Shown here in pieces: positions 1-12,783 of a DNA stretch of 58,559 nucleotides. The notes under the pieces were generated by a model. The model was not told the origin of the DNA, searched no databases, and worked only from the letters and a program-made list of their open reading frames with translations. How positions within the stretch are numbered: position 1 is the first letter of the stretch; each line of letters starts with the position of its first letter. Where the stretch lies: positions 1 through 58,559 of the forward strand of contig JAFIER010000146.1 in assembly GCA_020832465.1 (NCBI GenBank). The letters run 5' to 3'. This stretch comes from Bernardetiaceae bacterium. GTDB lineage: Bacteria; Bacteroidota; Bacteroidia; Cytophagales; Bernardetiaceae. Both the position numbers and the translations under genes were made by a program.

Positions 1-140
1 GTTGGTAAATCGACTTAGGAAGATTCAAAACTAACAGTTTTTCGAAAACTGTTAGTTATTGATAATTAGTAAATTATAGAAATAACATTTCTGGCAGAAA
101 TGTTATTTCTGAGCTAATTTAGCAAAGTTGTCGTACACCC
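1..140. repeat. Family B element, left tip outside the window
   Basis: The left arm (GTTGGTAAATCGACTTAG) is followed by the hairpin ACTAACAGTT/AACTGTTAGT. The hairpin AGAAATAACATTTCT/AGAAATGTTATTTCT comes next, then the right end GCAAAGTTGTCGTACACCC. The same order of parts is seen at 9934-10086. The start of the window cuts off the terminal GGGTGTACGTCAA, so the left target duplication cannot be checked. Confidence 0.85.
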
Positions 141-405
141 ATTGCTTTTAGAAATGAGAACAAACAGTCAGTACAGCACCGAGAGCACTCATTCTTACCT
201 GCTTATCAAATCAGATAGCAAAACAAAGGTACTAATCTTTATTACACTTACAAAGATAAACGAATTTGTGCAATAAAAAGGTATTTTATAGTTTTGCATT
301 TGAGTATTTACACAAACAATTATCGTTATTTTTCTCTTTGCTTGCAAATAATTCGTTATTTTTGCCTTTCCATTATGTTTTTTGCAAAAAAGCCTTTATA
401 ATTTT
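141..405. other. Upstream region of serB-serA
   Basis: No gene is seen here. A promoter-like -7 element TATTTTTG lies at 357-364, with a TTTG at 337-340 that is closer (16 nt) than the usual 19-20 nt. This would start transcription around 370 and leave a leader of about 35 nt before the ATG at 406. Short AT-rich frames in this stretch have no recognisable protein content. Confidence 0.5.
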
Positions 406-2295
406 ATGGCAAACAAATATTTTATCATTGATTTTGATAGTACTTTTACAAAAGTCGAAGCCTTAGATGAGTTATGCAAAATTTCGCTCAAAGGAAAACC
501 CCAGTGCGATAGTCATTTGCAACAAATAGAAGAGATTACGCTACAAGCTATGGCCGGAAGCCTATCCTTTGCAGAAGCTCTGGAGCGCAGAGTGGCTTTG
601 TTGGAAGCGAAAAAGCAAGATTTGACACCATTGATTGAAGCCTTAAGCCAAAGGGTATCAGAATCTTTCCGTCGCAATCAAGATTTTTTTGCGCACTATG
701 CCGATACAATTTTAATTGTTTCAAGCGGATTTCGTGAGTTTATCAGTCCGATTGTAAAACCTTATGGTGTGCGTGAAGAAAATATTTATGCCAATACTTT
801 TCTATACGATGAGCAGGATAATATCATTGGTTTTGATAAAAATAACGTACTTTCGCAAGACAATGGCAAAGTCCAACTGCTCAAATCATTGGCTTTGCAA
901 GGTGATGTCCATGTCATTGGTGATGGTTATACAGATTATCAAATCCGAGAAGCGGGGCTTGCCAATAAATTTTATGCCTTTACCGAAAATATCAAAAGAG
1001 ATAACGTGGTACAACAGGCTGATTATGAAATTCCTAACTTAGACGAATTTTTATACGTGAACGACTTAAAAAGAAATATTTCGTATCCTAAGCACCGCAT
1101 TAAAGTGCTCCTTTTAGAAAATATACACCCTAATGCCCAAGCCTATTTTGAGCAAGAAGGATATAAAGTTGAACTGCTCAAGCACGGCTTAGACGAGGAC
1201 GAGCTTTGTGAAGCCATTAAAGATGTCTCGATTCTGGGCATTCGCTCCAAAACGCAACTCACTGCCCGAGCCGTAGCATCTGCTCAAAGACTTATCGGCG
1301 TAGGTGCTTTTTGTATCGGTACAAATCAGATTGATTTGCAAGCGGCACTTGAGCGTGGCGTACCCGTGTTTAACGCCCCTTATAGCAACACACGCAGTGT
1401 CGTAGAGCTTGCTATTGCAGAAATGATTATGCTCTTGCGTAATATCCCTCGCAGTTTGCGCAATATGGACAAAGGCAAATGGGATAAATCCGCTGCACAA
1501 AGCTATGAAATACGAGGCAAAAAACTCGGCATTATCGGATATGGAAATATCGGGGCGCAACTCTCTGTTGTAGCAGAATCTTTGGGCATAGATGTCTATT
1601 ATTACGATATTGTTGATAAATTGGCAATGGGCAACGCCACTGCCTGCACTTCTTTGGAGGAGCTACTCCGCACAGTTGATATCGTATCATTGCACGTCGA
1701 CGGAAGGGTGGAAAATGAATGCTTAATCGGTGCTAAAGAGTTTGATTTGATGAAAGAAGGCGTAGTTTTTATGAACTTAGCACGTGGCTCGGTCGTTGAT
1801 ATCGAGGCCTTAGTAAGCAATCTAAATAGTGGCAAAATTTTAGGAGCAGCAGTAGATGTATATCCCGAAGAACCCAAAAGCAATGACGAACCATTTATCT
1901 CTGCTTTAAAAGCGATTCCCAATGTTATTCATACACCGCATATCGGTGGAAGCACGCAAGAGGCACAGTATAATATTGCAGAGTTCGTACCCAAAAAAAT
2001 CGTAGAATATATCAACAGCGGTACAACTTTTGGCAGTGTAAACTTCCCTGAAATTCAGCTCCCTAAATTACAAAATGCACACCGACTTATCCATATACAC
2101 CGCAACGTACCGGGTATATTGGCACAAATAAACCAAATTCTTGCTGAAAGTCAAGCCAATATCGTAGGGCAATATCTCAAAACAAACGAAACTGTGGGCT
2201 ATGTGATTACAGACGTAGATAAGCAATACAGCAAGCACCTCATAGAAAAACTCAAAAGTATAGAGCATACCATGAGGTTTAGGGTGCTGTATTAA
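406..2295 (+). CDS. serA: Bifunctional phosphoserine phosphatase / D-3-phosphoglycerate dehydrogenase fusion
   Basis: This cytoplasmic enzyme of about 629 residues would catalyse the first and last steps of serine synthesis. Residues 1-220 are a HAD phosphatase of SerB type: motif I DFDST near residue 9, motif II SSG near 104, and GDGYTD near 170. Residues 237-550 are a SerA dehydrogenase with the Rossmann motif GYGNIG, the substrate/catalytic region LARGSVVD, PEEP, and the catalytic-His region HTPHIGGS. The end (IHIHRNVPGILAQIN onward) is an ACT domain, which in SerA binds serine for feedback control. I chose the ATG at 406 because an earlier in-frame TTG (382) would add only eight unsupported residues close to the likely transcription start. 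SerC is not in the window. All key residues of both enzymes are present, so both activities are expected. The fusion itself is seen directly; channelling between the domains is inference. Confidence 0.9.
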   Translation: MANKYFIIDFDSTFTKVEALDELCKISLKGKPQCDSHLQQIEEITLQAMAGSLSFAEALERRVALLEAKKQDLTPLIEALSQRVSESFRRNQDFFAHYADTILIVSSGFREFISPIVKPYGVREENIYANTFLYDEQDNIIGFDKNNVLSQDNGKVQLLKSLALQGDVHVIGDGYTDYQIREAGLANKFYAFTENIKRDNVVQQADYEIPNLDEFLYVNDLKRNISYPKHRIKVLLLENIHPNAQAYFEQEGYKVELLKHGLDEDELCEAIKDVSILGIRSKTQLTARAVASAQRLIGVGAFCIGTNQIDLQAALERGVPVFNAPYSNTRSVVELAIAEMIMLLRNIPRSLRNMDKGKWDKSAAQSYEIRGKKLGIIGYGNIGAQLSVVAESLGIDVYYYDIVDKLAMGNATACTSLEELLRTVDIVSLHVDGRVENECLIGAKEFDLMKEGVVFMNLARGSVVDIEALVSNLNSGKILGAAVDVYPEEPKSNDEPFISALKAIPNVIHTPHIGGSTQEAQYNIAEFVPKKIVEYINSGTTFGSVNFPEIQLPKLQNAHRLIHIHRNVPGILAQINQILAESQANIVGQYLKTNETVGYVITDVDKQYSKHLIEKLKSIEHTMRFRVLY

Positions 2296-2303
2296 GCCAA
2301 GCA

Positions 2304-2364
2304 CATATTACTATACATTTTTCCATAGCGTGGAGTTTGCAAAAAAACACGCTATGGAATAATG
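2304..2364. repeat. Family A fragment (left end and stem)
   Basis: CATATTACTATACATT is followed by the stem CCATAGCGTGG...CACGCTATGG. The right half with the AATAACATTT hairpin is missing. It starts eight bases after the serA stop codon and could act as a terminator. Confidence 0.7.
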
Positions 2365-2401
2365 AATTGATACAACACCAATCCGAGTAATTTCCAATTT
2401 A

Positions 2402-2424
2402 ACACACACACACACACACACACA
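2402..2424 (+). repeat. (AC)11 dinucleotide tract directly before a start codon
   Basis: Eleven AC units plus one A end two bases before the ATG at 2427, in the position where translation initiation is decided. Dinucleotide tracts of this length are prone to slipped-strand changes. No -7 element is obvious nearby, so the tract is probably within the mRNA leader. Confidence 0.9.
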
Positions 2425-2426
2425 AG

Positions 2427-3614
2427 ATGAAAAAAAATTACTATTTGCTATGCTTTATTTTCCTTTTGAGCGCCTGCGGACAGCGTTCGGATAGCCCCGG
2501 CACAGTTTACGTTCCAGAAAATGAGCAAGAACTTATAGCGCAGGAGGATAGCTTGCTTCAAACTATTGAGCCACTTGTTTTAGATTATGCAAAAGGCTTT
2601 TCCGTGCGCTACGAAAAAGGAGCTAAAATTGTGAGCGTCAGTGATAAGCCCTTTGTTTATGTGCTTTATCCTAAGGGAAGCACAGCACCTAAGCTCGCAC
2701 TTGAGCATGAGGCTCTTTTTGTAGAAGTGCCTATTGAGCGTGCTGTTTTACGCTCGACCAAATATGCACCTTTTTTTAGCCTACTCGGCGAAAATGATAA
2801 GATAGTAGGATTTGCAGCAGGGAAATATCTATCAGATAAAGTGCTGTATGAGAGGTATGAAAAAGGAGAAATTCAAGAGTTAGGAAAAGCTAATGATGGT
2901 AGCCTTGACATTGAAAAAACTTTGAAAATCAATACAGATTTTATCCTCACTGATTATGTAGGCACTATGCCTGAAGCAGATAACAAACTCCACAGCCTTA
3001 CGCTTCCCATTATAAGAGCTGCCGAAACCTTAGAAGCTACACCATTAGGGCAAGCTGAATGGATAAAATTTGTTGCACTTTTTTTGAATAAAGAAAAGCA
3101 AGCTACTGTTATTTTTAATGACATAAAAGCCCAATATGAAAGTACTGCAAAAGCTGCCCAAGAAGCAACAGCTACTACAAAAAAACCTACGGTATTGCTC
3201 AATATGCCTTACAAAGATACCTGGTATATGCCAGGTGGCAAGAGTTTTATGGCTTCTTATATGGCAGATGCCGGTGCAGATTATCTTTGGAAAAACACAG
3301 GCGCGCGCCAAGCTTTAGCGCTTTCCTTAGAATGGGTATTTAAAAAAGGAACGGAAGCTGATTTTTGGTTGCATACAGATTATTTTCAATCCTTGGAAGA
3401 GCTGAAAAAAAATCATGAGCGATATGCCAGTTTTAAAGCTGTAAAAAAAGGAAATGTTTTTAATTTTAGCAAAAGGAGAAATCCACACGGTGGATATGAT
3501 ATTTTTGAGCAAGGTGTAGCCAGACCAGACAAAGTGTTAGCTGATTTATTTCATATTTTTCACCCAGAGGCTTCACCAGCGCACGAACTTTATTTCTATG
3601 AAAAATTAGAGTAA
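2427..3614 (+). CDS. Metal-chelate (siderophore or B12 type) ABC transporter substrate-binding lipoprotein
   Basis: The 395-residue protein begins with a lipoprotein signal peptide ending in LLSAC, so it should be anchored by Cys17 after export. The rest resembles the FepB/BtuF fold of helical-backbone binding proteins: a short N-terminal lobe containing KIVGFAAGKYLSDK, a middle LKINTDFILTDYVG segment, and a C-terminal lobe containing PTVLLNMPYKDTWYMPGG and a HGGYDIFEQGVARPDKVLADL end. Such proteins deliver iron-siderophore, haem or cobalamin to an inner-membrane ABC permease. No permease or ATPase gene is adjacent, so the ligand is unknown. The (AC)11 tract immediately upstream suggests variable expression. 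Confidence 0.8.
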   Translation: MKKNYYLLCFIFLLSACGQRSDSPGTVYVPENEQELIAQEDSLLQTIEPLVLDYAKGFSVRYEKGAKIVSVSDKPFVYVLYPKGSTAPKLALEHEALFVEVPIERAVLRSTKYAPFFSLLGENDKIVGFAAGKYLSDKVLYERYEKGEIQELGKANDGSLDIEKTLKINTDFILTDYVGTMPEADNKLHSLTLPIIRAAETLEATPLGQAEWIKFVALFLNKEKQATVIFNDIKAQYESTAKAAQEATATTKKPTVLLNMPYKDTWYMPGGKSFMASYMADAGADYLWKNTGARQALALSLEWVFKKGTEADFWLHTDYFQSLEELKKNHERYASFKAVKKGNVFNFSKRRNPHGGYDIFEQGVARPDKVLADLFHIFHPEASPAHELYFYEKLE

Positions 3615-3712
3615 AATAATAACAAAAATTGAACGTTATCAAAGAGAATATACGTTATAAAGCATAACGTTGCTTTCCAAAAGCAAATTTTATTACCTAA
3701 AAAAATATACAC

Positions 3713-4012
3713 ATGCGCATTTTAGCTATTATTTTATTTGTCATTGGTTTTGTAAGTCATAAAAGTTGGATAACATTCCCCTCTGAACTTGCTATGTTGC
3801 ATACTTATTCGCTATGGATTATGGCTGCTGGTTTTGGTTTATATTTTTTGATGATTGCAAAACGTAAATATGCCACTTGGGCTGCTGTATTTGTATTTAC
3901 AGTTGTCTTTTTGCTGGCTTCAAGCCTGCTCAACGTGCCCATTTTAGCTGATGTAAAAGTTTATAGCACTTGGATACTCCTACTCTGTTTTGTGGTTTTG
4001 GTTTGGTACTGA
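3713..4012 (+). CDS. Small polytopic membrane protein of unknown function
   Basis: Ninety-nine residues, almost entirely hydrophobic. Three to four membrane segments are visible, starting with MRILAIILFVIGFVSHKSWI and ending with STWILLLCFVVLVWY, and a short basic loop (AKRKYAT) separates the second and third. I do not recognise the family. It starts 98 bases after the lipoprotein gene on the same strand. It is followed after 50 bases by a family C repeat that separates it from the convergent rfbB-like gene. The frame is clean and uses codons like its neighbours, so I think it is real. Confidence 0.6.
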   Translation: MRILAIILFVIGFVSHKSWITFPSELAMLHTYSLWIMAAGFGLYFLMIAKRKYATWAAVFVFTVVFLLASSLLNVPILADVKVYSTWILLLCFVVLVWY

Positions 4013-4062
4013 GCTATGCAAAGCCGTGAAATAGAAAAAAAGAAGGTGAATGATTTCAAAGA

Positions 4063-4153
4063 GGTAGTCTTAAAGATGTAATGCTCAAAGTCTTTCAAAA
4101 CTAACAGTTCTCAAAGAACTGTTAGTTCTAAGCATTACTTGTTATACACTACC
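4063..4153. repeat. Family C element, copy 1 (91 bp)
   Basis: It runs from GGTAGTCTTAAAGATG to TTGTTATACACTACC with a central hairpin ACTAACAGTTCT/AGAACTGTTAGT. It is identical over all 91 bases to the copy at 18747-18837 and to the reverse complement of 7437-7527. CAAAGA flanks both sides, a possible 6-bp duplication. It lies between convergent genes. Confidence 0.95.
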
Positions 4154-4154
4154 C

Positions 4155-4193
4155 AAAGAAATAACATTTCTGCCAGCAATGTTATTTCTTTGA
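4155..4193. repeat. Solitary AATAACATTTCT hairpin
   Basis: AAAGAAATAACATTTCT pairs with the mirror arm ending ATGTTATTTCTTTG, with a few mismatches. It directly follows the family C copy, 45 bases past the stop of the minus-strand gene. It probably works as a terminator or is a relic of a larger element. Confidence 0.7.
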
Positions 4194-4237
4194 AATTTTT
4201 ATAGTTAGCCATATTATATAGGCATCTTTATTATACA

Positions 4238-6070
4238 TCAATCCAAACCTAATTTCTTTTTGAGGTCTTTCAAGGCTTCTTTTTGTGCATCAACGCCAAG
4301 TGCATCATTTACTTTGCGCTCGAGCTCGGGGTCTGGGCCTGCTCTTCGGATTTGCTCATATAAGTCTGAAAGAATTTCGTCTTTTTCAACTTTGGCTTTC
4401 ATTCTTTCAATCATATCTATGGTATCAGAAGAGTCGGGCATGCGTACTTTTTTGCGATAAGCCTTTCTCGCATTTTTAATTGTATCTACGTGCTGCTCCA
4501 TTTTGCTGTGTAAGTTTTCGAGCTCGGCAATATGCTTTTTTGTGGTGCGTACTTCCTCTTGCGCCTGCTCTTGTTTTCTCAGCAGTTGCATAGCAAGTTT
4601 ATTGGCTTCCTCCCAAGCTATTTCTCCTTTTTCGGCTTTTCGCATAATCATAATGGCTTTGCTTTCCGCATCTTTGTCATTTTCTTGTGCTGACTCGTAA
4701 TTTTTGCGTGCGCGAATAAGCGAGGCTTTAATCTCTGCTAAGCCCTCAAGAGCTTCTTCCAAATCTTCTTGTGATAGAAAATTGGCATAACGGCTGTAAT
4801 CTTGTGCATAAGGATTGGGGGGCTCCTGTTGCGTTTTTTCGCTACTGCGCTTGCGTGTATGTAAGGTTTCTTCAACGACTTCTTCAGCCACGACCTCTTC
4901 GGCTTCCACCTCTTCTACAAAATCCTCAGCCGTATTTTCGGTATTTTGCGATGCTTGCGAAGGTTGCTCCTGTACTAGGTTTTCTTTGTTTTTGTCTTTT
5001 TTTACTTCTTTTTGAGGTTTATCTGTTGTTGGTGCTTCTTTTGTAACTTTCGTGTTAATAATTTGGTACTTATTCAAATACCACTGTATTGTTTCTTGAA
5101 GTGCGCTTTCAAAATCCAACTCGGCTTTCCAGCCCAACTCCCCTTCGAGCTTGGCAGGGTCTATGGCATAGCGGTGGTCGTGCCCAGGTCGGTCTTCGAC
5201 AAAAGCAATCAAATCCGAATAGCTACCCGCCTGATGCGGTGCAAGCTTATCGAGTAGCCTACAAATATAACGAGCGAGTTCGATATTCGTACGCTCATTT
5301 CTTGTGCCTATGATATAGGTTTCACCGAGTTTTCCTTTATGAAAAATGCTATCAAGGGCTTTGGCGTGGTCTATGACATAGAGCCAATCTCTGACATTTT
5401 TACCATTGCCATAAATGGGAATGGGTTGCCTTGCAGTGGCTTTTCTTATGATGGTAGGAATTAGTTTCTCATCGTGCTGGCGAGGTCCGAAATTATTTGA
5501 GCAATTGCTTGTCAGCACGGGAAGTCCGTAGGTATGAAAATAACTTCTCACTAAAAAATCTGACGATGCCTTAGATGCACTATAAGGGCTGTTGGGTGCA
5601 TATCGTGTTTTTTCAGTAAAAAAACCTGTTTCGCCCAATGAACCATAGACTTCATCTGTAGAAACGTGCAAAAAACGGCAGTCTTCATATCCTTTTTTTA
5701 ATGCAAAAGGCGCATCGAGCCAATGCTTGCGCGCTGCATCTAAAAGTGCGAAAGTGCCTTCGACGTTGGTGCGCACAAATGCACCAGGGTCTTTGATAGA
5801 ATTATCCACGTGCGACTCCGCAGCCAAATGCACCACACCCCGAATATCGTGATGCGAAAAAAGATGGGATAGAAGTTCTTTATTGCAAATATCGCCATGC
5901 ACGAAGCTATAACGCTTCTCATGTTCAAGGTCTTTTAAATTTTCTAAATCCCCAGCATAGGTAAGCAAATCCAAATTGATAAGCCTATACTCAGAATATT
6001 GGTCTAAAAAATAAGTTAAAAAATTCGAGCCTATAAAGCCCGCTCCTCCAGTGATAAGAATACTTTTCAT
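4238..6070 (-). CDS. rfbB: dTDP-glucose 4,6-dehydratase with a long C-terminal coiled-coil extension
   Basis: About 610 residues from the ATG at 6070; the frame is open further upstream, but the Rossmann fold begins immediately after this Met (MKSILITGGAGFIGSNF). Residues 1-335 are a complete extended short-chain dehydrogenase: GGAGFIG for NAD, the STDEVYG active-site stretch, and YSASK with the catalytic Tyr and Lys. It converts dTDP-glucose to dTDP-4-keto-6-deoxyglucose for rhamnose-type sugars. RfbB normally stops near residue 350. Here a lysine-rich then glutamate-rich linker (about 340-420, with EEVVAEEVVEE) leads into about 180 residues of charged helix with heptad character (AEIKASLIRARKNYESA onward). 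No frameshift or stop separates the parts. No other nucleotide-sugar genes are adjacent. The dehydratase call is firm; the role of the tail is unknown. Confidence 0.9.
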   Translation of the reverse strand: MKSILITGGAGFIGSNFLTYFLDQYSEYRLINLDLLTYAGDLENLKDLEHEKRYSFVHGDICNKELLSHLFSHHDIRGVVHLAAESHVDNSIKDPGAFVRTNVEGTFALLDAARKHWLDAPFALKKGYEDCRFLHVSTDEVYGSLGETGFFTEKTRYAPNSPYSASKASSDFLVRSYFHTYGLPVLTSNCSNNFGPRQHDEKLIPTIIRKATARQPIPIYGNGKNVRDWLYVIDHAKALDSIFHKGKLGETYIIGTRNERTNIELARYICRLLDKLAPHQAGSYSDLIAFVEDRPGHDHRYAIDPAKLEGELGWKAELDFESALQETIQWYLNKYQIINTKVTKEAPTTDKPQKEVKKDKNKENLVQEQPSQASQNTENTAEDFVEEVEAEEVVAEEVVEETLHTRKRSSEKTQQEPPNPYAQDYSRYANFLSQEDLEEALEGLAEIKASLIRARKNYESAQENDKDAESKAIMIMRKAEKGEIAWEEANKLAMQLLRKQEQAQEEVRTTKKHIAELENLHSKMEQHVDTIKNARKAYRKKVRMPDSSDTIDMIERMKAKVEKDEILSDLYEQIRRAGPDPELERKVNDALGVDAQKEALKDLKKKLGLD

Positions 6071-6166
6071 AAAATTATAAGTTTTTTTTGATACAAGGTT
6101 TCTTTGCTTAAAGCGCAAAGGCATACATCAATTTAACAGAAAATTACAACTAATAACAACAGTTCA

Positions 6167-6274
6167 GGGTGTGTACGTGCAAGTTGGTCAATCTACTTAA
6201 ATAGTTTTGGCACTAACACAGTTTTTGCAAAACTATTAGTGCTAAGCCCATTGAGCAAAGCTTCCCGTACACCC
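6167..6274. repeat. Family B element, copy with exact 8-bp target duplication
   Basis: It runs from GGGTGTGTACGTGCAAGTTGG to GCAAAGCTTCCCGTACACCC with one internal hairpin (CACTAACACAGTTT...AAACTATTAGTG). ACAGTTCA is present on both sides (6159-6166 and 6275-6282). The second (AATAACATT) hairpin is absent from this copy. Confidence 0.9.
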
Positions 6275-6416
6275 ACAGTTCATAATACGAAAAACAGGTC
6301 ATAAAAGTTAGTCATGATCAAGATACAAAAAAAAAGTGTATTAGAAGGAATTTATAGCAACTTTTATTTGAGAACCTGCGTTATATAAGAATGCGATAAA
6401 AAAAGCGTTGTAAAAT

Positions 6417-6554
6417 TTTGCAAAATCGTTTTGATTTCGTAACTTAGTATTCACAATATAAAATTTACGGATTAGTAGTGCCTGCTTTTGAGTAAGTATG
6501 CACTCATAACAAACCCCTCACGCCAAGTATTGCTATTTGGTGTGTTATTTTTTT
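6417..6554 (+). ncRNA. Candidate small RNA with its own promoter and terminator
   Basis: TTTG at 6417-6420 is separated by 19 nt from TAACTTAG at 6440-6447, one base off the -7 consensus. An RNA starting near 6453 would contain the hairpin GTGC...GCAC (6478-6503). It would end at a strong hairpin CACGCCAAGTA/TATTTGGTGTG (6519-6544) followed by a T-rich run. A second hairpin (AACCCTAAAG/CTTTAGGGTT) follows at 6576-6613. There is no coding frame. I do not recognise it as a named RNA family; the call rests only on promoter and terminator geometry. Confidence 0.35.
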
Positions 6555-6716
6555 GTGTCTTTTCTAAAATGATTCAACCCTAAAGCCTGTCTTTTGATAG
6601 GGTCTTTAGGGTTTATAGATTTTCATACTATTTTGTATGTAGCGCATAGTAAGTATTCAAACTGCTCCGAGTGCTTTGCGTAGTTTTGCTTGCAAAAATG
6701 GACTTAGAAATAACGT

Positions 6717-6818
6717 GTGCATTTCAAAACTACGCGGTTTGTGTTTGGTGGAGACAGCAAACACGGCGAGAGTAGTTGTTTTAAGACAGTGGCTACTGCG
6801 TAAATATGAATTGCACCC
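6717..6818. repeat. Family D element inserted into a family A copy
   Basis: It begins GTGCATTTCAAAACTACGC and ends TATGAATTGCACCC, an imperfect inverted repeat. The bases AAATAAC occur just before (6707-6713) and just after (about 6819-6826) the element, as if the AATAAC hairpin arm of an A element had been split and duplicated. A related copy is at 31039-31140. Confidence 0.65.
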
Positions 6819-6874
6819 AAAATAACATGTCTCAAAGAAATGTTATTTCTGGCTAGCTAATATATAGTAGTATG
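6819..6874. repeat. Family A element, right half
   Basis: It contains the hairpin AATAACATGTCT...AGAAATGTTATT and the end GGCTAGC...TATATAGTAGTATG. The left part, including AAAAATGGACTTAGAAATAAC at about 6693-6713, lies beyond the inserted family D element. Confidence 0.75.
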
Positions 6875-6932
6875 ATGAAAAATTTTAATTCATTGCTTTT
6901 ACAATTCCAAAAAACAAAAACAAATTAGAAGT

Positions 6933-7406
6933 ATGGCTTCAGTAAACTATTATACCAAAGAAGGACTCGAGAAACTTAAAAATGAATTGCACGAGCTGCG
7001 TACCAAAGGACGTTCAGCCGCAGCAAGAGAAATAGCCGAAGCCCGAGAAAAAGGCGACTTAAAAGAAAATGCTGAATATGATGCTGCGAAGGAAGCACAG
7101 GGTATCTTAGAAATGAAAATTGCTAAATTAGAGCAACTCGTTGGCAATGCACGCATTATCGACGAATCTAAAATAGATGCTTCGAAAGTCGCTATTTTGT
7201 CAAAAGTAAAAATCCGAAATACTGCCAATAAAATGGAACTCGAGTATATGCTCGTTGCAGAAGAGGAAGCTGATTTGAAGCAAAATAAAATTTCTGTACA
7301 GTCTCCTATTGGCAAAGGATTGCTCGGAAAATCTAAAGGCGATATCGCTGAAATTAAAGCACCACGTGGCACTATCAAATTCGAAATCCTCGATATCGCT
7401 CGTTAA
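6933..7406 (+). CDS. greA: Transcription elongation factor GreA
   Basis: The 157-residue length is standard for the family. Residues 1-75 form the coiled-coil finger, with the family signature GDLKENAEYDAAKEAQ (its Asp and Glu at the tip coordinate the catalytic magnesium). Residues 80-157 are the FKBP-like globular domain ending RGTIKFEILDI. GreA enters the secondary channel of RNA polymerase and stimulates cleavage of backtracked transcripts. It is monocistronic, with a repeat-filled region on each side; a family C element begins 30 bases past its stop. No good -7 element is visible immediately upstream. Confidence 0.97.
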   Translation: MASVNYYTKEGLEKLKNELHELRTKGRSAAAREIAEAREKGDLKENAEYDAAKEAQGILEMKIAKLEQLVGNARIIDESKIDASKVAILSKVKIRNTANKMELEYMLVAEEEADLKQNKISVQSPIGKGLLGKSKGDIAEIKAPRGTIKFEILDIAR

Positions 7407-7436
7407 TTTTTAGCTTAAAATGGATATTAGAAATGG

Positions 7437-7527
7437 GGTAGTGTATAACAAGTAATGCTTAGAACTAACAGTTCTTTGAGAACTGTTAGTTTTGAAAGAC
7501 TTTGAGCATTACATCTTTAAGACTACC
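7437..7527. repeat. Family C element, copy 2 (91 bp, inverted)
   Basis: The reverse complement is identical to the copies at 4063 and 18747. The 8-bp target duplication AGAAATGG is exact (7429-7436 and 7528-7535). It lies just downstream of greA. Confidence 0.97.
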
Positions 7528-7619
7528 AGAAATGGTATTTTTAAGAAATACTATGGGGGTTTCGAAGCTATTTAGTGGTTGGGGAGTGGAGTTTTTGAGC
7601 GGTTTGTGTTAATTTAATC

Positions 7620-7680
7620 GGGTGTACGTCAAGTTGGCTAATCGGCTTAGGTAGTTTTAGCACTCATAATTTTCAAAAAA
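7620..7680. repeat. Family B left-arm fragment
   Basis: GGGTGTACGTCAAGTTGGCTAATCGGCTTAGGTAGTTTTAGCACT is followed by a decayed hairpin. The element is truncated where a family E repeat begins at 7683. Confidence 0.75.
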
Positions 7681-7682
7681 AT

Positions 7683-7739
7683 GTAGCCCGGAGCACCCAG
7701 CTTAGGAAGTTTACAACGAAGCTGGAACTTCGTTACTAC
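7683..7739. repeat. Family E inverted repeat (degenerate)
   Basis: GTAGCCCGGAGC...AACGAAGCTGGAACTTCGTTACTAC has GTAG...CTAC ends and a CGAAGCTGGA(A)CTTCG arm. It is a diverged form of the copies at 10938 and 34209. Confidence 0.65.
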
Positions 7740-7765
7740 AAGCGCACAAATATTAAATCGCTGCT

Positions 7766-7835
7766 CATACTACTATACATTTTTGCATAGCGTGGGGTTT
7801 GCAAACCCTACGTTATGCAAAAATGCGCTTAGAAA
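7766..7835. repeat. Family A left-half fragment
   Basis: CATACTACTATACATTTTT leads into the long palindrome GCATAGCGTGGGGTTTGCAAACCCTACG. The right end is missing. Confidence 0.75.
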
Positions 7836-7904
7836 TACTATTTCTAATATCTAAAATTGCGTTCTTATAGTTATGTACTAATCCTCTCCCTTTGCTTGTA
7901 GCCT

Positions 7905-8978
7905 ATGCAGCAGCTACTTTTATCATCTATTGTAGGCAAACGTTTGATAAGCACCCTCAGAGACGAGCGGCGCATTCCTGCTTGGGACTATCTGCGCGGT
8001 TTTGCCATTATTACGGTGCTGGCGGCGCATTTTGGTTGGTTTGATTGGGGAGGAATAGGCGTAGATTGTTTTTTTGTGCTTTCTGGCTACTTGGTAAGCG
8101 GCAAAGCCATAGAGGCGTATCGTCAAGATTTTAAGATGGATTGGCGTGCATTTTGGATAAAACGACTGACCAAAATTTTACCTTCTTATTTTTTCTTTAT
8201 CATAATAGGCTACCTGCTCGGTCAGTGGCTTATCATACCGATTCGCAAAGAGGCTGTATTTGAGTTTTCAGAAATTTGGGAATATTTACTCTTTTTACGC
8301 AATTATGCCGGACCGCCCGCTCGCGATGCTTTCGAGCATACATGGTCGCTTTGTGCAGAAGAGCATTTTTATTTGCTTTTTGGTATAGGGACTTTCTTGC
8401 TGTTGCAAATGCGCACAAGAGGGGAGGCGTGGCTATGGGCTTTTGCCTGGGCGTGGATTTTGGCGGGTTTAGGATTTAAGTGTATTGGGATTCTGTGGGA
8501 GTTGGGCGAATGGCCCAGCTATACGCACAATCGATTAGATGCTTTTGGCTGGGGACTTTTAGCCCGGCTTATTTTCTTGCGATGGCGACCAACTTTTTCT
8601 TATTGGCAACGTTTTTTATTGATTTTGCTATCTATTGTTTTGCTACTTATAGCCGTACTTTATTACCCAGACTACGACCCCCATGCGCTATTGAGGCGTG
8701 CTATTGTGCCTTTTGCTATAGTCGTTTTGATGTTAGGGGTTAAGCACATAACCTATATTTGGGGGGGGCTTGCACTGCGTTTGCTTGCTTATTATAGCTA
8801 TAACATTTACTTATGGCATTATTTCTGGCTTATTCCTATCAGTTATTACGCTGGAGATACGGCTTGGCTCAAAGCCTTGTACTTAATTTTGCTTACGGCT
8901 GTAAGTGCTTTTTTATGTACACGCTTTATAGAAGAGCCATTTTTGGAGTTGCGTAAAAAGTACTTAGTAGCAAAATAA
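7905..8978 (+). CDS. Acyltransferase family 3 (OafA/YrhL-like) integral membrane protein
   Basis: The 357 residues carry about ten membrane segments. The N-terminus has the family hallmark RGFAIITVLAAHFGW, in which the His is the catalytic residue, followed by GIGVDCFFVLSGYLVSG. The segment HTWSLCAEEHFYLLFG is the second conserved block, and the C-terminal SYNIYLWHYFWLIP block is also typical. These proteins move acetyl or other acyl groups across the inner membrane onto sugars of O-antigen, capsule or peptidoglycan. The gene stands alone, so the acceptor is unknown. A run of eight G at 8761-8768 lies within the coding frame (Trp-Gly-Gly), where a slip of one base would truncate the last two membrane segments. 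Confidence 0.9.
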   Translation: MQQLLLSSIVGKRLISTLRDERRIPAWDYLRGFAIITVLAAHFGWFDWGGIGVDCFFVLSGYLVSGKAIEAYRQDFKMDWRAFWIKRLTKILPSYFFFIIIGYLLGQWLIIPIRKEAVFEFSEIWEYLLFLRNYAGPPARDAFEHTWSLCAEEHFYLLFGIGTFLLLQMRTRGEAWLWAFAWAWILAGLGFKCIGILWELGEWPSYTHNRLDAFGWGLLARLIFLRWRPTFSYWQRFLLILLSIVLLLIAVLYYPDYDPHALLRRAIVPFAIVVLMLGVKHITYIWGGLALRLLAYYSYNIYLWHYFWLIPISYYAGDTAWLKALYLILLTAVSAFLCTRFIEEPFLELRKKYLVAK

Positions 8979-9222
8979 ACACAGATGTAGGAGTATTTTG
9001 TTAGATTAGCCCAGCGCTTACAGTTTTCGCAAAACGCTGAATGCTGAAACTACTTAAGCCGATTCACCAACTTGACGTACACCCATAGACATCTAAGCGG
9101 TGCGGCTTTGCACTAAGATTTTGTTATTTTATGGATAAATATTTTTTATTTCCCACAAAAATTACTAACTTTGTGGTTCTTATTATTTTTATCATTTTAT
9201 ACGCTTAATAGCTCTTACAATT
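8979..9222. other. Gap before rplU with a family B fragment and a promoter
   Basis: An inverted family B left half lies at 9005-9084 (AGCCCAGCGCTTACAG... to CAACTTGACGTACACCC). The -7 element TAACTTTG at 9166-9173 should drive rplU-rpmA, giving a leader of about 45 nt. Confidence 0.7.
9166..9173 (+). promoter_or_regulatory. -7 element of the rplU-rpmA promoter
   Basis: TAACTTTG matches the Bacteroidota -7 consensus TAnnTTTG exactly. The -33 region is T-rich but lacks a clear TTTG. Confidence 0.65.
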
Positions 9223-9534
9223 ATGTATGCAATTGTAGAAATAGCCGGACAACAGTTCAAAGTAGAAAAAGACCGTTTTATCTATACGCACCGCCTCAAG
9301 CAAGAGGAGGGCGCAGAAGTAAGCTTCGACCGCGTGCTTCTCGTAGATAATAATGGCACTGTTTCTGTCGGTGCGCCCACCATAGAAGGTGCGAGCGTCA
9401 AAGCAAAGGTTGAAAGCCACCTTAAAGGCGACAAAGTAATTGTTTTTAAGAAAAAACGACGCAAAGGATACCGCAAAAAGCAAGGACATCGTCAGTACTT
9501 AAGCAAAATTCGTATTACGGATATCGTAGCTTAG
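9223..9534 (+). CDS. rplU: 50S ribosomal protein L21
   Basis: The 103-residue length is normal. The N-terminal MYAIVEIAGQQFKVEKDR and the C-terminal KKKRRKGYRKKQGHRQ followed by TRI-like KIRITDI are the diagnostic L21 ends. It binds 23S rRNA in the large subunit. It is followed after 57 bases by rpmA, the standard L21-L27 pair, and the two share the promoter at 9166 and the terminator at 9885. Confidence 0.98.
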   Translation: MYAIVEIAGQQFKVEKDRFIYTHRLKQEEGAEVSFDRVLLVDNNGTVSVGAPTIEGASVKAKVESHLKGDKVIVFKKKRRKGYRKKQGHRQYLSKIRITDIVA

Positions 9535-9591
9535 TGCTTTTTGTAAATCTTTTTTTTATTATTTCTTTTCAAATTCTAAAAAGTTAAAACT

Positions 9592-9858
9592 ATGGCTCAC
9601 AAGAAAGGTGTAGGTAGTAGTAAGAACGGACGCGACTCGATAAGCAAACGCTTAGGCGTAAAGATATATGGCGGTCAGAAAGTAAAAGCTGGCAATATTA
9701 TCATACGTCAACGTGGTACAAAATACCACCCTGGTAAAAACGTGGGAATCGGTAACGATCACACACTTTTTGCACTTGTACATGGAGAAGTAGTCTTTAC
9801 TAAAGGTTACAAAAAACGCTCTTTTGTGCATGTAAAACCCGCAGAGGAAGTCGCATAA
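9592..9858 (+). CDS. rpmA: 50S ribosomal protein L27
   Basis: Eighty-eight residues. It starts [16 protein letters not shown] and contains [22 protein letters not shown], the L27 signature. The flexible N-terminal tail reaches the peptidyl-transferase centre. No cleavable N-terminal extension of the Firmicutes type is present; the gene starts directly at MAHKKG. It is the second gene of the rplU operon and is followed by a strong terminator. Confidence 0.98.
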
Positions 9859-9884
9859 GCAACTACTATTTTTTAGTACGAAAG

Positions 9885-9928
9885 AAAGGTCTTTATTTCT
9901 AAAATTCTTAGAAATAAAGACCTTTTTT
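9885..9928 (+). terminator. Intrinsic terminator of rplU-rpmA
   Basis: AAAGGTCTTTATTTCTAA pairs with TTAGAAATAAAGACCTTT and is followed by a T run. The stem is about 17 bp. A family B element inserted at the end of the T run, at 9934. Confidence 0.9.
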
Positions 9929-9933
9929 GTGAG

Positions 9934-10086
9934 GGGTGTACGTCAAGTTGGTAAATCAACTTAGGTAGTTTCAGCACTAACAGTTTTTCGAAAACTGTTA
10001 GTGCTTGATGCTTAGTACATTATAGAAATAACATTTCTCAAAGAAATGTTATTTCTGGACTTATTTAGCAAAGTTGTCGTACACCC
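9934..10086. repeat. Family B element, complete (153 bp)
   Basis: The ends are GGGTGTACGTCAAGTTGGTAAAT and ATTTAGCAAAGTTGTCGTACACCC. It carries both hairpins (CACTAACAGTTTTTCGAAAACTGTTAGTG and AGAAATAACATTTCTCAAAG...). The target duplication TTTGTGAG is exact (9926-9933 and 10087-10094). This is the reference copy for the family. Confidence 0.95.
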
Positions 10087-10112
10087 TTTGTGAGATACAA
10101 TCAAATACCTAT

Positions 10113-10209
10113 TTATACACTTTTCCATAATAGTATCGCAGCTGTAAACTCCACCCCCCCTATGTAAAAATAGACTTAGCAATAACATTGCTTTGAGAAA
10201 CCTTATTCC
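10113..10209. repeat. Decayed family A element
   Basis: TATACACTTTTCCATA...TATGTAAAAATAGACTTAGCAATAACATTGCTTTGAGAAA resembles the middle of family A. Both ends have decayed. Confidence 0.45.
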
Positions 10210-10258
10210 TACCTGATAAAAACTTTTTTGCCTGCAAAACAAAAATATAGCAACAAAG

Positions 10259-10349
10259 GGTAGTCTTAAAGATGTAATGCTCAAAGTCTTTCAAAACTAA
10301 CAGTTCTCAAAGAACTGTTAGTTCTAAGCATTACTTGTTATACACTCCC
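10259..10349. repeat. Family C element, copy 3 (91 bp)
   Basis: It matches copies 1 and 2 except near the right end, where CACTACC reads CACTCCC and runs into a C9 tract. No target duplication is visible. It lies between the convergent genes rpmA and the small gene at 10378. Confidence 0.92.
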
Positions 10350-10377
10350 CCCCCCTTATTGGGCACACTTTGTATGG

Positions 10378-10539
10378 CTATTCATTCACTGTTTCAGACT
10401 TATCTTCTGTTTTTTCTGTTTTATTTTTGCGTGGAAGACGCAATTTTTTGAAATTTCTAAAATCCAAATAATAACCCAAAGCAGGAAAAACAACGCTTGC
10501 TGCTAAGATAAACACGATTAAAGCTAATTTGCTACTCAT
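10378..10539 (-). CDS. Small single-pass membrane protein of unknown function
   Basis: From the ATG at 10539 it encodes about 53 residues: one membrane segment (SKLALIVFILAASVVFPALGYYLDF) and then a basic-to-acidic tail (KKLRLPRKNKTEKTEDKSE). The frame is open for 20 more residues upstream, but those look non-coding, and the hydrophobic segment starts right after the chosen Met. I do not recognise it. Plausibly real because of its clean membrane-plus-tail design, but short. Confidence 0.5.
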   Translation of the reverse strand: MSSKLALIVFILAASVVFPALGYYLDFRNFKKLRLPRKNKTEKTEDKSETVNE

Positions 10540-10639
10540 AATATAATTTGCAAAATAAGAAATGATGAGAAATTTAAATTCGTAATAAACATTATCCAAG
10601 ATTAGATATCGGCATCTTAGCCCTAATATCTAAACTATC

Positions 10640-10733
10640 TTACTATACATTTTCCATAGCGTTGTGATTTGCAAACCCCAAACCATGATAAAAACAGAAA
10701 TAACATTTCTGACTGACTGATGTATAGTAGTAT
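10640..10733. repeat. Family A element, complete but diverged
   Basis: TTACTATACATTTTCCATAGCG is at the left and TAACATTTCTGACTGACTGATGTATAGTAGTA at the right, with a shortened middle. No target duplication is visible. Confidence 0.75.
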
Positions 10734-10818
10734 CAAATATCCTACCTAAGCAGGTAGCAAATCAAAGGTGATAATATATGATAATAAGCCTTTTTGTGGC
10801 TAAATTGTTCATACTTAA

Positions 10819-10906
10819 TCATATCACTATACATTTTTTGGTAGTCTTAAAGATGTAATGCTCAAAGTCTTTCAAAACTAACAGTTCTCAAAGAACTGTT
10901 AGTTCC
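10819..10906. repeat. Family C copy 4 (truncated) joined to a family A end
   Basis: ATCATATCACTATACATTTTTT (a family A left end, 10819-10839) runs directly into GGTAGTCTTAAAGATG... of family C, which breaks off after its hairpin at about 10906. This looks like a C element inserted in an A element, with later loss of the distal parts. Confidence 0.75.
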
Positions 10907-10937
10907 AAAAATTTGACATCTAATATCTTTAAGGCCT

Positions 10938-10995
10938 GTAGTACGAAGCTCCAGCTTCGTTATAAGCCACTTCCGAAGCTGGAGCTTCGGGCTAC
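10938..10995. repeat. Family E inverted repeat (58 bp)
   Basis: GTAGTACGAAGCTCCAGCTTCG pairs with CGAAGCTGGAGCTTCGGGCTAC around a short spacer. Each arm is itself a palindrome (GAAGCTCCAGCTTC). Confidence 0.85.
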
Positions 10996-11057
10996 AGTTT
11001 TAAAAACTGTGAAGGCTGCAACTATCTAAGTTGATTTACCAACTTTGACGTACACCC
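10996..11057. repeat. Family B left-arm fragment (inverted)
   Basis: AGTTTTAAAAACTGTGAAGG... runs to ACCAACTTTGACGTACACCC. It abuts the family E repeat and ends four bases before the stop codon of the symporter gene. Confidence 0.75.
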
Positions 11058-11061
11058 GTTT

Positions 11062-12783
11062 TTACTGCCCACTGCCTTTATTTTTGTTTTTGAATAGTGT
11101 TTGCTGCAAAGTCCACGATATGAAAACGACCATCAAGCAACCAATTAAATTATACCAAAGAAAAGAAATTTCTATGATAGGAAAAAAATACACGTAAATA
11201 ATAAAAAGTTGTGTCGTAGCTGCTGCCATAAAAACGGCATGCCCGCCTACCTTTTTGATATAAAAAGCAGTGAGAAAAATTCCTAAAATTGTACCATAAA
11301 AAAGTGAACCTAAGATATTTACAGCTTGAATTAGGTTTTCAAGCTCCCGAGCTATTTGTGCAAAGAAAATAGCATAAATTCCCCAAAAAAGAGTAAGCCA
11401 TTTTGAGGCTTTAAAATAATGCTTATCATCGCCTTTGGTATAAATCGAACGTTTGTAAATATCGTTCATAGCCGTAGATGCTAAGGCATTAAGCTCTGAA
11501 GCTGCCGAGGACATAGCCGCAGAGAGCATAACGGCAATCAGCAAACCTACCAAACCCGCAGGCAGATGCGATACAACAAAAGTAATAAAAGCATAATCTA
11601 AATCGCTATTGCGTAACTTGGCAATATCGGTTTCGTTTTGGGTCTGTCCAAGTACGGCAATAGCTTTAAGCCGAGTGGCTTCATAGTGCGCATCAGCTGC
11701 AAGAAGCTGAGCCTTAGCTTCAGATTTTTGCGCCTCTTCGGCTTGAATATAAGTATAAATCGCTGCCTTTTTTTCTTTAAAAGCGAGGTCGTAGGTAGGC
11801 TCTAAAGCCTGATATTCTGCGGCAATATTTGCGTCTTGGATAATCAAATCTTTATCAGCAGTATTGAAATAAAGTGGCGGCTGCTCAAATTGATAAAAAG
11901 CAAAAAGCAAAATACCTACAAAAAGTATCAAAAACTGCATCGGTATCTTGACAATGCCATTCATTAACAAGCCCAAACGACTCTGTGTGATGGACTTACC
12001 ACCCAAATAACGCTGTACCTGAGACTGATCTGTACCAAAATAAGACAAAGCCAGAAAAAAACCGCCCAGCAAACCGCTAAATACATTATAACGACTACCC
12101 AAATCAATATCAAAATTAAGCACTTCCATACGACCGACAGCACCTGCTACATCTACTGCTTGACCCAAAGAAACCTCAGCGGGTAGCATTTGCACCAAAA
12201 AATAGGCTGCCAAAAACATACCTACTAATATAACAAACATTTGCTGCTTTTGCGTCTGACTTACAGCCTTCGTACCACCCGTTACCGTGTAAATAATTAC
12301 GATAATACCAATTGCAATAATCAACCAGAAAATATCCCAGCCTAAAACAGCAGAGAGAATAATCGCTGGTGCATAAATAGACAGACCCGCCGCAAGCCCT
12401 CGCTGTGTAAGAAATAAAAATGCACCCAAACTACGAGTTTTTAAATCAAAGCGATTTTCTAAATACTCGTAAGCCGTATAAACTTTTAAGCGGTGAAAAA
12501 TCGGAACTGCCGTTACAGAAAGTACAATCATTGCCAAAGGCAAACCTAAATAAAACTGTACGAAGCCCATACCGTTGCCAAAAGCCTGACCTGGCGTCGA
12601 GAGGAATGTAATAGCACTTGCTTGTGTAGCAATAATAGAAATGCCAATCGTAAACCAGTTCATATCCTTGCCCGAAAGCAAATAGCCTTTAAGGTCTTTA
12701 CTTTGGTTGCGGCTTTTCCAAATACCATAAGCTACGATAAAAAGCTGCGTACCGATAAGTACAATCCAGTCTGTAAGCGTCAT
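11062..12783 (-). CDS. Sodium:solute symporter (SSS family) with an unusual cytoplasmic or periplasmic insertion
   Basis: A 573-residue inner-membrane transporter. The N-terminus (DWIVLIGTQLFIVAYGIW, then GYLLSGKDMNWFTIGISIIATQASAITFLSTPGQAF) and the FGTDQSQVQRYLGGKS block are typical of the SSS family, whose members import sugars, amino acids or sialic acid with Na+. The usual LeuT-like core is present. A charged, alanine-rich stretch of about 85 residues (from LYFNTADKDLIIQD to NSDLDYAF) interrupts the transmembrane pattern after FAFYQFEQPP and contains a helical segment AQKSEAKAQLLAADAHYEA. The substrate is not predictable. A -7 element TATATTTG lies just upstream on the minus strand. The gene is monocistronic. 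Confidence 0.88.
   Translation of the reverse strand: MTLTDWIVLIGTQLFIVAYGIWKSRNQSKDLKGYLLSGKDMNWFTIGISIIATQASAITFLSTPGQAFGNGMGFVQFYLGLPLAMIVLSVTAVPIFHRLKVYTAYEYLENRFDLKTRSLGAFLFLTQRGLAAGLSIYAPAIILSAVLGWDIFWLIIAIGIIVIIYTVTGGTKAVSQTQKQQMFVILVGMFLAAYFLVQMLPAEVSLGQAVDVAGAVGRMEVLNFDIDLGSRYNVFSGLLGGFFLALSYFGTDQSQVQRYLGGKSITQSRLGLLMNGIVKIPMQFLILFVGILLFAFYQFEQPPLYFNTADKDLIIQDANIAAEYQALEPTYDLAFKEKKAAIYTYIQAEEAQKSEAKAQLLAADAHYEATRLKAIAVLGQTQNETDIAKLRNSDLDYAFITFVVSHLPAGLVGLLIAVMLSAAMSSAASELNALASTAMNDIYKRSIYTKGDDKHYFKASKWLTLFWGIYAIFFAQIARELENLIQAVNILGSLFYGTILGIFLTAFYIKKVGGHAVFMAAATTQLFIIYVYFFPIIEISFLWYNLIGCLMVVFISWTLQQTLFKNKNKGSGQ

Follow-up and report, generated by a model that had tools for sequence, protein, structure and literature searches.

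Behind the dTDP-glucose 4,6-dehydratase gene (rfbB, also called rmlB) of a Bernardetiaceae bacterium, the reading frame does not stop where the enzyme ends, which raises the questions of whether the extension truly belongs to the enzyme, what kind of protein it is and what it might do there. The window analysed here, i.e., the whole stretch of DNA at its full length, comprises 58,559 nucleotides (contig JAFIER010000146.1). A preliminary description made from the letters and open reading frames had proposed that the dehydratase runs through Lys- and Glu-rich linkers into a charged coiled-coil tail. We confirmed that the frame is uninterrupted, with 275 further residues after the dehydratase part. 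It is open over positions 4238-6124 of the minus strand, but an in-frame start 18 codons upstream of 6070 is not common to the relatives. The start at 6070 is the one used by nine other intact relatives, and the intact proteins begin with MK-(S/A/H)-ILxTGG. The features of the locus are as follows.

4238-6070, minus strand: fused rfbB-tail gene, 610 amino acids, single reading frame
5066..6070, minus strand: RfbB/RmlB part, residues 1-335 (TIGR01181, PDB relatives, motifs)
4799..5065, minus strand: acidic linker, residues 336-424 (composition, pLDDT, fast evolution)
4241..4798, minus strand: PspA/Vipp1-like module without alpha0, residues 425-610, 186 residues (PspA profile, PF04012, AlphaFold2, Foldseek)
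4445..4762, minus strand: predicted helical hairpin (alpha1, tip KGEIA, alpha2/3), residues 437-542 (AlphaFold2 helices 13-56 and 62-118)
4250..4426, minus strand: predicted alpha4 and alpha5 (DTIDMIERMKAKV... and ...VNDALG...LKDLKKKL), residues 549-607 (AlphaFold2 helices 125-152, 157-166 and 169-183; PF04012 stretch)
4238..4240, minus strand: stop codon of the fused frame

Judged by its sequence, the segment of residues 1-335 is a complete dTDP-glucose 4,6-dehydratase. Its TIGR01181 score of 456.9 bits exceeds the curated cut-off (365.1), residues 4-335 corresponding to model positions 2-315 of 321, and the enzyme ends close to residue 340, as had been proposed. Its nearest PDB relatives by sequence are the dTDP-glucose 4,6-dehydratases 8du1, 1bxk and 1g1a (E 1.6e-112 to 5e-109). 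The GxxGxxG motif and the catalytic T138-D139-E140 and Y163xxxK167 motifs of the RfbB family are present, and an alignment of six fused proteins shows no variation at T138, D139, E140, Y163 and K167. Among the matches listed from outside the window's family (f1), RfbB frames are 338-412 codons long, with one exception of 503, and leave no room for such a tail, which suggests that the tail is dispensable for catalysis. The 503-codon frame (G099) was read and proved to be an upstream read-through without a PspA module. RmlA and RmlD of the pathway do not carry tails either, the frames of the 11 full-length matches of each being 286-342 codons long.

The gene surroundings were also inspected. rmlA and rmlD of the window's genome are located on other contigs. 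greA lies upstream of the fused gene at a distance of 0.86 kb, and a 99-residue frame at 3713-4012, 3' of the fused gene, points toward it. No psp gene adjoining the fused gene was seen by eye, with Pfam searches on nine proteins, in positions 1-12000 of the window or in two relatives' loci (L021, L025). Further away, a 637-codon frame at 382-2295 on the plus strand resembles by eye a fusion of a phosphoserine phosphatase, with a HAD-type start, and a D-3-phosphoglycerate dehydrogenase. In four loci of genus g2, the gene after the fused rfbB codes for a DUF676-type putative esterase, as identified by Pfam for the L021 copy and by eye for the others:

L003:2336-3436, L005:2342-3415, L008:2455-3564 and L021:5739-6842: DUF676-type putative esterase genes

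PspA and Vipp1 represent the ESCRT-III superfamily in bacteria; PspA polymerises on membranes and repairs them. A profile was built from nine separate, canonical PspA genes (frames of 237-295 codons) found by a tail search of 59 related genomes; five of the nine were scanned with PF04012 (PspA_IM30) and scored 125-148 bits. The window module reached 118.6 bits with this canonical profile, and the ten other tails 58.0-94.9 bits. Plain shuffles of the module (996 scored of 1000) gave at most 8.5 bits, heptad-register shuffles (1000 of 1000) at most 10.2 bits and reversed heptad-register shuffles (999 of 1000) at most 9.9 bits, i.e., 2995 shuffles scored altogether, and the reversed module and the linker each scored -0.5 bits. 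Because all these controls scored so low, the similarity to PspA reflects homology rather than coiled-coil bias, and plain coiled-coil similarity was ruled out. By these sequence comparisons, the module is related, though divergent, to the ESCRT-III-like PspA/Vipp1 proteins of bacteria. With PF04012, the window tail scored 20.3 bits over profile positions 36 to 217, without reaching the cut-off of 33.9, and four relatives' tails were likewise under it with 22.1-31.7 bits, their best stretch extending from profile position 139-159 to 217. A PDB sequence search with a profile of the tails returned three unrelated coiled coils and no PspA or Vipp1 chain. We also considered a defence-system identity and set it aside, as the search yielded only a weak MukB-like match over the linker and the coiled coil (E 0.0039).

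The module has lost parts of PspA. No counterpart of alpha0 was found in the tails; the canonical N-termini align only with scattered RfbB columns, and the place of alpha0 in the fused protein is occupied by RfbB and the linker. Compared with PspA1 of the same genome, the tails have no equivalent of the first 38 residues, which comprise alpha0 and the beginning of alpha1; for residues 1-35 this was judged from an alignment that kept the canonical N-termini, the position-wise comparison beginning at residue 36. In the alpha2-alpha3 arm they are shorter by about 22 residues (PspA1 134-144 and 151-161 as aligned). Averaged over the tails, identity to PspA1 amounts to 39% (alpha1), 40% (tip), 43% (alpha3-4) and 34% (alpha5), but to only 23% in the alpha2 segment. 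Six residues, W486, N490, M544, P545, L570 and K597, are invariant in the 11 fused rows and found in none of the 20 canonical rows, a comparison from which four untrimmed rows of the tree were left out.

AlphaFold2 was run on the module with seven rows and predicted helices at module positions 13-56, 62-118, 125-152, 157-166 and 169-183 (mean pLDDT 75.7, pTM 0.50). The single long heptad-like helix of the preliminary description is thus replaced in the model by a helical hairpin followed by three shorter helices. The invariant W486 and N490 sit just after the hairpin tip. Foldseek ranks 1-13 were all PspA, Vipp1 or CHMP (ESCRT-III) chains, but with E values of 0.035-0.23 none was significant. 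VIA-align placed E. coli PspA (4whe) third with a Z score of 11.7, among unrelated hairpins at 10-12. On the predicted model, fold comparison does not tell the hairpin from other helical hairpins or from ordinary coiled coils. The pI of the hairpin is 8.8 in the window, 8.1-9.3 in the four genomes measured outside g2, the window among them, and 6.5-7.8 in the six g2 genomes; of the ten values, five lie at 6.5-6.6, each of them from g2. Seven canonical PspA hairpins have pI values of 9.5-9.9.

The segment that connects the two parts had been described as Lys- and Glu-rich. It is acidic, with 24% D+E, and with 13% K+R it is not Lys-rich overall. It is predicted to be disordered, with pLDDT under 50 for residues 339-418 in the AlphaFold2 model of the whole protein, a model based on an alignment of only 6 rows in which the RfbB domain is also poor in parts. 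The window linker is 7-22% identical to the nine other intact linkers, and its dN/dS is raised.

We then compared the genomes of the family. The fusion is present in one open frame of 591-629 codons in 10 of the 11 genomes of family f1, taken to be Bernardetiaceae, which represent four genera, and in all 11 the fused gene is the only one over the RfbB cut-off. Within genus g2, 14 of 15 pairs gave dN/dS values (NG86, by which pairs with saturated dS yield no ratio) of 0.00-0.09 in RfbB and 0.01-0.07 in the module, compared with 0.14-0.71 in the linker. Enzyme and module change at a similarly slow rate, and the linker changes faster; this argues that the fusion is not a misassembly. A stop after the dehydratase with a separate tail gene, named in the preliminary description as a sign of frameshift or misassembly, occurs in G004 only, where RfbB (366 codons) and the tail (235 codons) are in different frames that meet at a run of 11 A:

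L003, about 1480-1510 (G004:C1 near 1937270): frame break at the A11 run, in a single-contig genome

The G004 tail is nevertheless conserved, with dN/dS of 0.04-0.06 against six relatives, indicating purifying selection; the change of frame may reflect an error in sequencing, a true interruption of the gene or a site of slippage. In G009, a genome fragmented into 460 contigs, an RfbB fragment at a contig edge (C271:16-195, 80-codon frame) matches TIGR01181 positions 262-321 with 87.8 bits, below the cut-off, and looks like a second, untailed RfbB. The region around it (G009:C271:1-4962) holds a partial second rml cluster with this RfbB C-terminal fragment and incomplete rmlA and rmlD genes, the latter with one stop; it may be a second copy of the pathway or a contaminant.

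Canonical PspA genes over the Pfam cut-off accompany the fusion in every family genome, with two copies in 10 of 11 and one in G005. In trees that took in 15 of these 21 genes, the fused tails fell on one side of a branch and 24 canonical PspA rows on the other, with support of 100/100. Of the four untrimmed rows, two were trimmed for a later tree with rows from family f3 and two were left untrimmed. By sequence, the tree does not settle which canonical PspA was the parent of the tails. Five of the 11 family genomes also contain a distant PspA-like gene of 332-378 codons, scoring 20.6-29.5 bits with PF04012:

G003:C53:79248, G004:C1:921185, G006:C10:12189, G007:C1:799912 and G010:C41:53394: distant PspA-like genes

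The module itself extends beyond the family. A scan of the contig collection with the tails found six loci, five of them fused Bernardetiaceae ones and one a canonical PspA. Profile searches revealed no other RfbB fusion in the order (291 and 390 genomes), the phylum (395) or the class (395), samples that overlap, and matching frames outside Bernardetiaceae were at most 330 codons long. The thresholds were E 1e-33 for the 390-genome order and 395-genome class searches, at which weaker relatives would be missed, E 1e-7 for the 395-genome phylum search and E 1e-6 for the 291-genome order search. The alpha0-less module was present in 14 of the 390 sampled genomes of the order. Its carriers outside the window's family all belonged to f3, another family of the order, in which 3 of 13 genomes (G111, G136 and G060) have it on short N-terminal domains:

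L050:4887-5684 (minus strand), L051:4493-5218 (plus strand) and L052:3348-4052 (minus strand): f3 module genes

The N-terminus in G111 resembles PF02604 (Phd/YefM-like), below cut-off, with E 0.00068 when searched alone and 0.04 in the whole protein. G136 and G060 share a 40-residue N-terminal domain of the type MKTxEFE...VRVTIFVEE, for which Pfam gave no match, and two f3 N-termini tried against plasmid records gave none. RfbB was not attached to the f3 modules in the frames read; among the matches listed, that of G060 is on another contig. A branch with support of 100/100 separates the f3 rows and the fused tails jointly from canonical PspA, and the placing of the f3 rows inside or outside the fused tails has support of 63/69 only. 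A mobile element was considered and rejected, as 50,697 phage records and 72,556 plasmid records contained no match to the module at the sensitivity used, and none of 69 candidate stretches in viral contigs was confirmed as the module.

What, then, might the module do for the enzyme? We tentatively favour a reading, drawn from the sequence comparisons, in which RmlB is docked onto, or co-assembled with, ordinary PspA polymers at the cytoplasmic membrane through the module. By sequence, an intact RmlB is followed, after a flexible linker, by a module of PspA/Vipp1 descent that has lost alpha0 and part of the hairpin base and kept the hairpin tip and the alpha4-alpha5 segment; this module would have become an assembly adapter. 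In the available part of PMC11919738, alpha5 of subunit j of Vipp1 filaments binds the hairpin tip of subunit j+3. The hairpin and alpha5 of the fused protein could use this ESCRT-III contact, in which alpha5 of one subunit lies across the hairpin tip of another, to dock onto or co-assemble with the PspA polymers of the cell at the cytoplasmic membrane. As canonical PspA is encoded in all 11 family genomes, every cell may contain such a polymer as a partner, and the occurrence of the same module behind other N-terminal domains in f3 fits a portable adapter. The conservation of the open fusion in 10 of 11 genomes, its standing as the only RfbB over the cut-off and the low dN/dS of the module, equal to that of RfbB, also speak for this reading. 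Against it count the PF04012 scores under the cut-off, the PDB sequence search that returned no PspA or Vipp1 chain, structural matches that lack significance and are equalled by other helical hairpins, and the absence of a psp gene next to the fused gene in the three stretches read. Proteins of the PspA family assemble into carpets, rings and rods, and PspA without alpha0 keeps rods without membrane tubulation, as described in the accessible sections of PMC12358876; the module, which lacks alpha0, should not itself tubulate the membrane. The docked enzyme would make dTDP-4-keto-6-deoxyglucose, an intermediate on the way to dTDP-rhamnose, at the site where the cell consumes precursors of envelope polysaccharides, or alternatively the production of this intermediate would respond to envelope stress. 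The membrane tethering suggested in the preliminary description is thus plausible insofar as the tail is PspA-related, and direct anchoring in the membrane is a weaker version of it because the tail is devoid of the membrane-inserting alpha0 of PspA. Nothing observed points to the cell pole, the other location suggested.

The main rival is that the module polymerises only with itself and cross-links RmlB dimers into cytoplasmic rings, filaments or clusters, a self-assembling scaffold that would involve neither ordinary PspA nor the membrane. We regard it as possible though somewhat doubtful. The loss of about 22 alpha2-3 residues and the 23% identity in alpha2 mean that the module may not fit the canonical PspA lattice, and module-specific conserved residues together with a shortened hairpin base are what would be expected if it had left that lattice. 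The invariant W486, N490, M544 and P545 may, from the alignment, mark a different partner. The near-neutral g2 hairpins (pI 6.5-7.8, versus 9.5-9.9 in canonical PspA) make lipid contact less likely in that genus, but the values of 8.1-9.3 in four other genomes indicate that loss of basic charge is not general.

The tail could also be a stabilising or autoinhibitory coiled coil without any link to the membrane or to PspA. The lack of discrimination in the fold comparison is compatible with such a structural or regulatory role, as is the absence of room for a tail in the RfbB frames listed outside f1. It is nonetheless unlikely, given that the hairpin and alpha4-alpha5 retain PspA positions in four genera and that the same module is found on other N-termini in f3.

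We consider it a little less probable still that the hairpin binds lipids directly and tethers single RmlB molecules. The alpha1-3 hairpin of IM30 (pI 9.43) alone can bind anionic membranes, according to the portion of PMC12636044 available, and the pI of 8.8 of the window hairpin would be in keeping with a similar activity. However, alpha0 is missing, and the g2 hairpins, half of all those measured being at pI 6.5-6.6, are less basic than canonical ones, which makes direct binding less likely.

Finally, a frameshift, a misassembly or a chance read-through joining two genes is very improbable in spite of the broken frame in G004, and is refuted as the origin of the fusion for the family by the one open frame in ten other genomes of four genera, two of which (G001, G007) are assembled into four and five contigs, by purifying selection on the tail, G004 included, and by the separation of the tails from canonical PspA in the tree.

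If RmlB does dock onto PspA polymers, an early step of dTDP-deoxysugar synthesis would be physically part of a membrane-stress scaffold and perhaps switched by it. It is possible, though somewhat doubtful, that the only RmlB of the family is built into an ESCRT-III-like polymer and that the alpha0-less module is a portable plug for different cargo domains. The plug would then recruit RmlB in one family and antitoxin-like domains in another onto PspA assemblies. In eukaryotic ESCRT-III, adaptor tails recruit cargo, which offers a comparison for a plug-like module; to our knowledge, little has been described of the cargo recruited onto PspA/Vipp1 polymers. An enzyme fusion conserved throughout a family is a natural cargo to look for on these polymers, and through it a link between envelope stress and polysaccharide supply becomes directly testable. 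In addition, the analysis delineates a PspA subfamily without alpha0 whose scores remain under the Pfam cut-off.

Both halves of the protein are of known kinds. Like RfbB/RmlB enzymes (TIGR01181; 8du1, 1bxk, 1g1a), the fused protein has a full-length match over the cut-off and the TDE and YxxxK motifs, and differs from them by its C-terminal extension of 275 residues. The module is similar in sequence to PspA/Vipp1 (IM30)/LiaH proteins (PF04012), at 58-119 bits with the canonical profile, and is distinguished from them by the absence of alpha0, a shorter alpha2-3, its own W/N/MP residues, its position behind an enzyme and a score below the Pfam cut-off. The family-wide union and the alpha0-less module are undescribed as far as we searched, and no report of an RfbB-PspA (RmlB-Vipp1) fusion was found in the literature searched, which, with one frame in 10 of 11 family genomes, supports the earlier view that the fusion is not a standard one. 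Where PspA homologues have been surveyed, the PspA domain stands alone in more than 98% of them, and the fusions, under 2% of homologues, include PspA_IM30 with NlpC/P60, PspA_IM30 with PspAA and tandem PspA, according to the part of PMC11237479 available. The words "dehydratase" and "epimerase" are absent from its main text, and no nucleotide-sugar enzyme is named among the fusions in the part available, which resemble ours in that a PspA domain is joined to another domain. A rhamnose-pathway enzyme in a fusion is known from the microalga Prymnesium parvum, in which RmlC and RmlD are joined (PMC6556577, in the part accessible); the alga thus unites two enzymes of the pathway, whereas Bernardetiaceae unite one enzyme with a module that has no match to an enzyme family.
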